In this document: one piece after another, positions 39,970 through 42,170 of the stretch
Position numbering within the stretch: position 1 is the first letter of the stretch
Layout of the letters: the number at the start of each line of letters is the position of its first letter
Assembly (NCBI GenBank): GCA_018816645.1
Contig: JAHIVN010000126.1
Coordinates: 1 to 42,318 of the forward strand
Length of the DNA stretch: 42,318 nucleotides
Source: Patescibacteria group bacterium
GTDB taxonomy: Bacteria; Patescibacteriota; Dojkabacteria; JAHIVN01
Direction: 5' to 3'
Program-made: the position numbers and the translations under genes
The notes under the pieces: generated by a model
The model's database searches: none
The model's input: only the letters and a program-made list of their open reading frames with translations
Told to the model about the DNA's origin: nothing

Positions 39970-40782
39970 ATGCCCGAACTTCCCGACCTTGCAGTCTTCC
40001 AACAAAATCTAAAGACAATTGTTCTCAACAAGATAATCTCCTCTTCAGGATGCAATGCAGTAAAATCCCTTATAAACTCGTCACCTGAAGAGCTCGACGA
40101 AGCGGTAAAGGGAAACCAGTTTACAGATATCACAAGACGCGGCAAGCATCTGATCTTCACACTAAATAATGATTTGAGACTTGTTCTGCACCTCATGCTC
40201 AGAGGCAGGCTTCTTTTACTCAAAAGCTCACAGACTCATCATACAGAAGAATGTATCTGGTTTGACTTCTCCGACGGCACAATGCTTGTAGTGATTGATC
40301 CTACCCGCTGGATAAAACTTGAACTTCTCAAAGATGGTGATTTGAATAATTCAAAATTGCTCAAAAATCTTGGTCCTGAAGCAGACAAAGTGACTTTAGA
40401 AGAATTGAAAGAAATTCTACAGAAATCAAGGCTTGGTAGAATCAAACCGCTTCTTATGGACCAAAAAAAGATTGCCGGTATAGGCAATGCGTACGTAGAT
40501 GAGATCCTCTGGAAAAGCAAAATACATCCAAACAAAACAGCGTCATTGTTAACTGATGCACAGATAAACACACTTTATAGAAATATTTCGAATGTTCTGA
40601 AATGGGGAGTAGAGGAGAGCACAAAAGACGTTGGAGGTGAACTTGCAGAATCAGAACGGAGTTGGATGAATGTTTATAGAAAACGAGGCAAGCCCTGTCC
40701 AAATTGTAAAACTCCAATTGAGCAGACGAAAGTTGTTGGGAGAGATACTTTTTACTGCAGGAGATGTCAATGCAACCAATAA
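39970..40782 (+). CDS. mutM: Formamidopyrimidine-DNA glycosylase
   Basis: This repair enzyme removes 8-oxoguanine and FapyG and cleaves the abasic site. It has 270 residues. The catalytic N-terminus is MPELPDLAVF (usually MPELPEVE; P2 and E3 are kept, E6 is D). RRGKHLIF holds the conserved lysine and LMLRGRLLL follows. The helix-two-turn-helix has KKIAGIGNAYVDEILWKSKI with the conserved Asn, and the zinc finger is CPNC...VVGRDTFYCRRCQ with the essential Arg. All key parts are present, so it should be active. Confidence 0.96.
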   Translation: MPELPDLAVFQQNLKTIVLNKIISSSGCNAVKSLINSSPEELDEAVKGNQFTDITRRGKHLIFTLNNDLRLVLHLMLRGRLLLLKSSQTHHTEECIWFDFSDGTMLVVIDPTRWIKLELLKDGDLNNSKLLKNLGPEADKVTLEELKEILQKSRLGRIKPLLMDQKKIAGIGNAYVDEILWKSKIHPNKTASLLTDAQINTLYRNISNVLKWGVEESTKDVGGELAESERSWMNVYRKRGKPCPNCKTPIEQTKVVGRDTFYCRRCQCNQ

Positions 40783-40813
40783 AATAATGATTTTTTTTTA
40801 AGAACACTGATAA

Positions 40814-41584
40814 ATGGAACAGGAAGAAAAAAGCCCAAGAGATAAAATGAAAATTGTACGAAGATATTACACAGAAGGGGTTTTGAAATTGGAAAGATTT
40901 CCACTTAGTCCTCTCTGTCTTCCTGAAACTGTGCTTGTCCCATATCAAATAACCGGCCGACTCACCGAAGCAATAAGTGAAACTATGAGCGATAATTTGG
41001 AGAGGGCCCAGATGATTGGTATTGACCCATTTTCCAACGAACCTTTCGAAATCTCCTCTGTGACAGTTGGCACGAGTCATTTTGTTCGGCTGCACACTAG
41101 TCTTCGAACAGTTATGACTGGAAATCCAGCAAAGCCCGTTTTACTCGATTGGCATACCCATATTTTACTAGAAAGAAAAACACAACAAACAGAAGAAACG
41201 ATAGCGGATGTTGTCCCGTCAGAACAGGATCTCCATTCTCAGTTTGCACCTTTACGTGGATTATTATCAATTATTGCAAGTGGGGATATGCAGATCCTTG
41301 TATGCAGGACTGAGCAAGCCATTAATATTAAGAAAACCCCGTTCATAAGAGTAGCTCGAATGTTCTTGACCTCACTAAGAATATTCTTAATTTATAGAAA
41401 ATGTTTACCTGAAATTGGAGAGGAAATCCCAACTGACGCTCGAGAAAGAAACCTCCAAATTCTTGTAAAGCTGGCTGGTTTAATCGAATCTATTGGTTTC
41501 GGATTGTATCTAAGCGATGTGGAGCAGCAGCATATTGAGAATGGAATCAAGTTTACACGAATCCCAGGAGCTCAAAAACTATGA
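40814..41584 (+). CDS. Unknown protein with a JAMM/MPN-like metal motif
   Basis: The product has 256 residues without membrane helices. The middle carries a pattern that fits a JAMM (JAB1/MPN+) metalloprotease: NLERAQMIGID with E63, a run of strands, then LLDWHTHILLE (H114, H116), and after a 19-residue insert PSEQDL (S136, D139), followed by RGLLSIIASGDMQILVCR. Canonical JAMM is E-x(n)-HxHP-x(6-7)-S-x2-D; here P is I and the loop is longer. The C-terminal about 80 residues are helical and unassigned. A peptidase or deubiquitinase-like role is an inference from this motif only. It follows mutM by 31 bases. Confidence 0.5.
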   Translation: MEQEEKSPRDKMKIVRRYYTEGVLKLERFPLSPLCLPETVLVPYQITGRLTEAISETMSDNLERAQMIGIDPFSNEPFEISSVTVGTSHFVRLHTSLRTVMTGNPAKPVLLDWHTHILLERKTQQTEETIADVVPSEQDLHSQFAPLRGLLSIIASGDMQILVCRTEQAINIKKTPFIRVARMFLTSLRIFLIYRKCLPEIGEEIPTDARERNLQILVKLAGLIESIGFGLYLSDVEQQHIENGIKFTRIPGAQKL

Positions 41585-41666: not shown

Positions 41667-42170
41667 TCACGCAGATATCAAAGGAGGGGCGTTTGGTGGA
41701 AGAATCTGTGGAGTTGGGGTTGGAGCTGGTAGGGTTGGTTTAGGTTTGAAAAGATCAAGCGGATTTGGATTTGGTCCGAATGGCTGCCTCAATCCTTCTC
41801 TTATTATTGGAAATGTATCGTCAGCATTTAATGCAAGGTATAAAGCAGCACCTCCCAATTGAAGTCCTGCAATTCGCAATAGAAAACCGCTAAAAAAACC
41901 TATATTTCGGATTTTCTCATCTGGATGATTGATAGTCCGTCTCTCTATGGCATTTCCAGCAAAGTACATCAGAACACCTGCAACACTAAATCCTGTAATC
42001 AAAAATGGATTTTCATTCCCAGGTTTGCTTAGATATGCTCCACATATAAAAGCTCCGGTACCAAATGAGAACATGGGAATTGCATATCTGTGAGTAAAAT
42101 CAAAGACACGGCCAGCTACTTCTTCTAACCGTCCTACTTGAGCATCTTGTACAGAAGAAACATCTTCCAT
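41667..42170 (-). CDS. Small membrane protein with proline-rich tail
   Basis: The product has 167 residues. Three hydrophobic segments: about 31-49 (YAIPMFSFGTGAFICGAYLS), 57-74 (FLITGFSVAGVLMYFAGNAI) and 92-112 (GFFSGFLLRIAGLQLGGAAL). The last about 40 residues are Pro-rich (FGPNPNPLDLFKPKPTLPAP then TPTPQILPPNAPPLISA), probably disordered. No family is recognised. It converges with the JAMM-like gene and lies ten bases from the presumed end of the IS1595-type element. Confidence 0.6.
   Translation of the reverse strand: MEDVSSVQDAQVGRLEEVAGRVFDFTHRYAIPMFSFGTGAFICGAYLSKPGNENPFLITGFSVAGVLMYFAGNAIERRTINHPDEKIRNIGFFSGFLLRIAGLQLGGAALYLALNADDTFPIIREGLRQPFGPNPNPLDLFKPKPTLPAPTPTPQILPPNAPPLISA

Follow-up and report, generated by a model that had tools for sequence, protein, structure and literature searches.

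The gene at positions 40814–41584 (forward strand) of the window, by which the whole analysed stretch of 42,318 nucleotides is meant, very probably encodes a stand-alone metallopeptidase of the JAMM/MPN+ type that belongs, as a highly divergent member, to a Dojkabacteria family apparently not described before. The 256-residue JAMM/MPN-like protein was characterized from its open reading frame, its translation, a match to the family profile and a predicted model. What is new is the family together with a structural variant, a loop insertion, within a known superfamily; the fold itself is known. What sets the family apart is its loop insertion, its restricted distribution and its lack of the usual partner, all of them uncommon, and the assignment provides a functional class for a protein left blank by the family libraries searched.

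Glu63 (41000–41002), His114-Thr115-His116 (41153–41161) and Ser136-Glu-Gln-Asp139 (41219–41230), all on the forward strand, follow one another in the JAMM/MPN+ order E-HxH-SxxD and stand in the translation exactly where an earlier note on this DNA had placed them. Glu63 is the predicted general acid–base glutamate, His114 and His116 are predicted zinc ligands, Ser136 is expected to be the oxyanion serine and Asp139 the third ligand of the zinc. Residues 117–135 (41162–41218, forward strand) lie between His116 and Ser136 and make up the 19-residue loop that the same note had counted. A C-terminal insert, at about residues 170–228 (41321–41497, forward strand), was predicted by the model to contain two helices (177–201 and 207–226) and is longer than in the relatives viewed (every fourth relative of the alignment).

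The co-directional upstream neighbour is the formamidopyrimidine-DNA glycosylase Fpg/MutM (39970–40782, forward strand; Pfam H2TH, Fapy_DNA_glyco and zf-FPG_IleRS), separated from the window gene by 31 bases. The convergent downstream gene (41667–42170, reverse strand) encodes a small protein whose tail is rich in proline and which contains hydrophobic stretches; it gave only a sub-threshold SdpI match, was assigned to no family and had no match in genomes G001 or G002. Since no clear ribosome-binding site is seen ahead of the first ATG, Met12 (base 40847) is a possible alternative start of the window gene. An antisense reading frame of 213 residues (40454–41095, reverse strand), which overlaps Fpg and the JAMM gene, is most likely spurious.

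Discovery and distribution of the family

With the window protein as the query, two genomes besides its own were matched at E ≤ 0.001 among the 57 genomes searched, and the same two weak hits, with none further outside its own genome, were obtained with 379 genomes of the phylum. One of these two hits, L003 (protein P0003 of genome G055), served as the query that led to the family; L003 is treated here as the canonical relative and provides the family residue numbering. As a query it hit 43 of the 85 class genomes searched, and the window's own gene was among the hits, at E 7.9e-4. Both outside hits, found before the family was known, are members of it.

Profile A5, with the window protein included, detects the family in 42 of 81 genomes of the class Dojkabacteria. 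The 14 genomes that match the family profile in the phylum sample of 379 genomes all belong to this same class. Short peptide patterns scanned over GTDB species genomes gave 26 loci. Three genomes yielded two rows each (G036, G041 and G000, the window's own), in each case two pieces of one gene, and the family is therefore normally single-copy. Exact peptide patterns gave no close relative of the window protein in genome contigs or viral contigs, nor did the patterns used reveal any family relative in viral contigs. No paper on JAMM proteins of Dojkabacteria or Patescibacteria was found in the PMC open-licence library.

The window protein matched no Pfam family at E ≤ 1, so for the libraries tried it is indeed otherwise unrecognised, as had been stated. 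When the 40 relatives were scanned singly, the best E values were 0.0022 for Pfam, 0.0058 for NCBIfam and 0.0016 for PADLOC, each in one member; Prok-JAB (PF14464) was reached by one of the 40 at E 0.15 and PADLOC JAB rows by at most two (best 0.017). At the curated cut-off of PF14464 there was no match in the window protein or anywhere in the window's genome, and a profile of the 40 relatives gave no match to PDB sequences at E ≤ 10. The proposal of a candidate new JAMM-like family stands with respect to Pfam, NCBIfam and PADLOC because none of these recognises the family, and 'new' is to be read relative to them.

The alignment of 40 relatives (A2) leaves out the window protein (L001), L004 and L005 (duplicates of L003 and L002, respectively), L019 (G036, gene in two pieces) and L041 (G041, split over two frames). 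The members from G014 and G047 were found later and stand outside A2; as judged by eye, they keep the E, HxH and SxxD residues. A likely C-terminal transmembrane segment, also recognized by eye, is present in L043 (G051) and L107 (G047) and suggests membrane-anchored versions.

Catalytic residues, membership and predicted fold

Nine columns are invariant in the 40 relatives (Pro42, Thr62, Glu68, Val93, His145, His147, Pro148, Ser162 and Asp165 in L003 numbering). Five of them are the JAMM residues E, H, H, S and D, the counterparts of Glu63 (Glu68), His114 and His116 (His145 and His147), and Ser136 and Asp139 (Ser162 and Asp165). Conservation of these five residues among relatives, put forward earlier as a check, was thus seen in 40 of the 40 aligned.

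The spacing from HxH to Ser is less regular. The published JAMM motif is EXnH(S/T)HX7SXXD (PMC300881); this H-x7-SxxD spacing occurs neither in the window protein, with 19 residues, nor in the 40 relatives, in which the loop has 10–33 residues (median 15). All of the RadC-like (23/23) and Prok-JAB (4/4) proteins inspected have a seven-residue loop. Because the relatives depart in this way from the motif, RadC and Prok-JAB alike, a long loop characterises the family; the earlier note was right as to its presence, but it is common to the 40 relatives and not peculiar to the window protein. Two short strands are placed in the loop by both models, at residues 149–152 and 155–158 of L003 and at 119–122 and 129–132 of the window protein. 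The window protein reads HTHI, without the proline of HxHP, and the G047 member likewise lacks it (HTHF). Between E and HxH the window protein is shorter by about 27 residues.

Membership was assessed with a profile of the 40 relatives from which the window protein was excluded. The window protein scored 15.7 bits, whereas shuffling its sequence 20,000 times gave at most 10.0. In a comparison of the family profile with the 168 open reading frames of the window, only the JAMM gene's own entry was among the best six rows listed. On addition to the fixed alignment with mafft --add, the E, H, H, S and D of the window protein fell on all five catalytic columns, and none of 100 shuffles added in the same way matched more than three. 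All five residues were also in register with the relatives using E-INS-i. With the auto, L-INS-i and G-INS-i modes of mafft applied to the window protein and the 40 relatives, E, S and D were in register and HxH was in register with 0 of 40. The window gene lay above E 0.001 in the 379-genome phylum search with the A2 profile and was not reported, so the family link of this gene, though significant, is weak.

The A5 profile gave the window gene E 8.6e-13, which is not independent evidence because A5 contains the window protein. For A5, 36 of the 40 relatives were picked, with mafft auto, so that the five residues stood in register; this alignment is the basis of the window model. The window protein is 14–25% identical to the 36 aligned relatives, the G001 copy included. 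Two further alignments were rejected: HxH was misplaced in A1, and in A3, in which the relatives were cut into N and C halves, the C halves were misaligned and the alignment was not used further.

The family model had a mean pLDDT of 90.5 and a pTM of 0.85. The corresponding values for the window model were 73.6 and 0.68, obtained from an alignment pre-selected for residues in register. For structure comparison, the 1000 candidates from Foldseek were re-aligned by VIA-align, which gave 117 matches with Z ≥ 2 for the family model. The best 50 of these 117 are all JAB/MPN proteins or complexes holding one, headed by Pyrococcus JAMM1 (5ld9_A; Z 7.9, r.m.s.d. 3.1, 112 aligned) and followed by Cap3 (9ild_A, Z 7.6) and CsRpn11 (6fnn_B, Z 7.5). 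For the window model 48 of the 50 matches listed are JAB/MPN, the unclear ones being 8ppl_I8 and 2kks; the best is the COP9 signalosome (9efq_E; Z 7.2, r.m.s.d. 5.0, 162 aligned), and CsRpn11 gave Z 6.8. In these counts the BubCD, Plant-Complex-C, proteasome, ER membrane complex and Prp8 chains were taken by us to be JAB/MPN.

All of these Z scores are below 8, the range in which the tool warns of a possible common arrangement, and in Foldseek's own ranking nothing was found for the family model at E ≤ 0.001. Since no Z reaches 8, the case for the fold rests on the consistent list of matches together with the invariant residues. On the comparison with JAB/MPN folds that had been proposed earlier, both the family and the window models are MPN/JAMM-like, and neither of the two outcomes named in the note as refuting its reading came about. 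In the window model (secondary structure from DSSP), Glu63 directly precedes strand 64–70, HxH stands at the end of strand 109–114 and Ser136 and Asp139 stand at the start of helix 137–141. This predicted order, helix-E-strand, strand-HxH and S-helix-D, fits the remark that the residues have MPN+ secondary structure around them and agrees with that of AfJAMM, in which E22 is on beta2, H67 and H69 are on beta4 and D80 is on alpha2 (PMC300881).

Activity, gene context and alternative readings

The window gene product is probably active. Zinc binding and peptidase activity are attributed to the family by analogy with the JAMM mechanism of PMC300881. In such a mechanism His114, His116 and Asp139 of the window protein would hold one zinc ion, Glu63 would activate the zinc-bound water and Ser136 would stabilise the tetrahedral intermediate, with a peptide or isopeptide bond being hydrolysed. 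The extra hairpin between HxH and Ser would lie next to the metal and probably gives the substrate pocket its shape. If this is true, the JAMM site tolerates changed spacing between its metal ligands.

We regard it as unlikely that the window copy is instead a paralogue that was freed from catalytic constraint and then diverged into an MPN- pseudo-enzyme or scaffold. Such a course is known for Rpn8 and some MPN subunits of eIF3, and the very long branch of the window protein (2.7 substitutions per site), the loss of the HxHP proline and of residues before HxH, and the lack of a close relative in the 379 phylum genomes or by peptide patterns in genome contigs would all fit it. However, the five catalytic residues are kept at 14–25% identity, which would be unexpected without selection on the site, and the G047 member has also lost the proline and yet retains the E, HxH and SxxD residues by eye. 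A divergent but probably active enzyme is thus the preferred reading.

The relation of the window gene to the other copies was considered from the tree and from gene order. In the tree the window protein was placed with L002 and L003, not with the copies from G001 and G002, but on a very long branch and at a node without a support value, so that this placement is given no weight here. The G001 and G002 copies, which come from the same taxonomic family, adjoin fmt. The Fpg of the window shares 72–74% identity with its counterpart in G001, a genome of the same genus, across the portion present there, and the Ldh_2 and VanW proteins on the same G001 contig are about 62% identical to those of the window. 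This G001 contig ends inside Fpg, and in G002 no JAMM gene was seen behind Fpg within the approximately 420 bases to the contig end. With the G001 protein as the query, fmt was not found in the window's assembly (140 contigs, 91% complete), which is probably an assembly gap. As fmt is missing from a 91%-complete assembly, the usual family copy may simply be missing too; the window gene would then be a second, fast-evolving copy.

Gene neighbourhoods were compared at 31 loci in 30 different genomes (L041 and L085 are on one contig), and ten of the 27 recurrent clusters, those found in three or more loci, were named by Pfam. Three arrangements recur. In the first, fmt lies upstream on the same strand with no open reading frame of 80 residues between (L034, L035, L036, L041/L085, L082 and L084); it overlaps the JAMM gene by a base in L082 and is 25–26 bases away in L035 and L034. 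Two open reading frames separate fmt from the JAMM gene in L083, and Lgt is upstream in several of the fmt-linked loci. In the second, LemA, DUF2207 and JAMM genes stand in a row (L067, L068, L070, L072, L075 and L069, the contig of L069 beginning inside DUF2207). In the third, found in eight loci, the JAMM gene is flanked by an AI-2E transporter and, across from it, by an Ig-domain (Big_6) protein together with a sortase (for example L062, 6682–8410, and L081, 2551–4299, in one Dojkabacteria group), with DUF2085 also present in seven of the eight. The neighbours differ by lineage and none is constant, so the substrate is not readable from context.

These neighbourhoods also bear on whether the window protein and its family are deconjugating enzymes of an endogenous ubiquitin-like or sulfur-carrier system, after the manner of the E1–JAB operons or of HvJAMM1 and SAMP1, a reading that we consider distinctly unlikely. 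In its favour, the prokaryotic JAMMs studied act on or beside ubiquitin-like or sulfur-carrier proteins in the cited papers (HvJAMM1 with SAMP1, CsRpn11, and DRJAMM on MoaD–MoaE; PMC4443979, PMC6043591, PMC8832034), bacterial JAB genes adjoin E1-like genes (PMC1779556), and several of the best structure matches of the family model are ubiquitin or Ubl deconjugases. In contrast, ThiF/E1-like genes score above the cut-off in only 12 of the 81 genomes of the class (14 with E ≤ 0.001). Five of these 12 also have the family, compared with 42 of 81 overall (Fisher p = 0.54). No ThiF match was obtained in the window's genome at 91% completeness. E1-like genes are likewise absent beside the window gene, its two neighbours being Fpg and the small protein without a family, and from the ten named neighbour clusters. 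Because the presence of ThiF/E1-like genes does not go with that of the family, a ubiquitin-type partner is unsupported, and so is the link to ubiquitin-like tags suggested in the earlier note. We infer a substrate other than an E1-dependent ubiquitin-like tag.

A coincidental JAMM-like motif in an unrelated protein is very improbable, for although the sequence link is weak and the A2 profile did not retrieve the window gene at E ≤ 0.001 from the phylum sample, 0 of 20,000 shuffles reached its profile score, five catalytic columns were matched compared with at most three in 100 shuffles, both outside hits found before the family was known proved to be members, and the window model matches JAB/MPN structures.

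Within the favoured reading, a metallopeptidase family of the Dojkabacteria, a more specific picture can be offered tentatively. The Dojkabacteria JAMM lineage may be stand-alone, without any E1/ubiquitin-like system, its loop hairpin serving to clamp a substrate that belongs to basic cell processes (the gene is fmt-coupled in some lineages); the window's genome may have a second, fast-evolving copy of changed specificity. If true, a conserved E1-free JAMM lineage in small-genome bacteria implies that the fold has substrates still to be found. Phage-tail and defence versions of JAMM are known.

Comparison with known JAMM systems

The family was compared in profile–profile mode with 17 profiles, from four Prok-JAB proteins, 22 RadC proteins and 15 neighbour families as controls. 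Prok-JAB ranked first (P 0.0012, probability 19%, score 28.1; next score 18.7), and in its alignment HxHP and SxxD were in register with a gap inside the loop; an earlier, less clean comparison had given a probability of 7%. This sequence match points weakly to the same superfamily. RadC gave no match (P 0.12). A first RadC comparison had been spoiled by the fused protein L118, and the cleaner repeat was also without a match. L118 itself (G257:C9, a 565-residue frame) appears by eye to be a RadC-type protein fused in frame to a C-5 cytosine DNA methyltransferase.

At E ≤ 0.001, PF14464 was found in 39 of 361 phylum genomes, with only four above the cut-off. The RadC-like HNHPS/HSHPS signature is carried by 23 of the 30 PF14464 loci listed; the HNHPS...PSxxD proteins are presumably RadC (JAMM-like). 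RadC resembles the family in also occurring in Patescibacteria and in its HxHP and SxxD signature, and the P before SxxD is present in the window protein as well. It differs in the seven-residue loop of all 23 inspected and in the lack of a profile–profile match.

Prok-JAB shares HxHP...SxxD with the family, and the predicted family fold matches Cap3 (9ild) with Z 7.6 and BubCD (9ea4), which we take to contain JAB, with Z 7.1. The differences are that PF14464 is not matched by the family, that the loop has seven residues in the four Prok-JAB proteins inspected and that no E1 partner was found for the family. One Patescibacteria chain, L110 (G272:C33, 461 residues), combines an N-terminal Prok-JAB with what looks by eye like an E1/ThiF domain and is a possible bacterial ubiquitin-like system outside the Dojkabacteria.

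The archaeal JAMMs AfJAMM (1oi0), Pyrococcus JAMM1 (5ld9) and CsRpn11 (6fnn) resemble the family in predicted fold (Z 7.3–7.9 with the family model), in the order of elements and in the E, HxH, S and D residues. They differ in motif spacing, which is seven residues in the published motif (PMC300881) and 10–33 in the Dojkabacteria family, and in the loop hairpin and the extra strands before HxH that the family model predicts.
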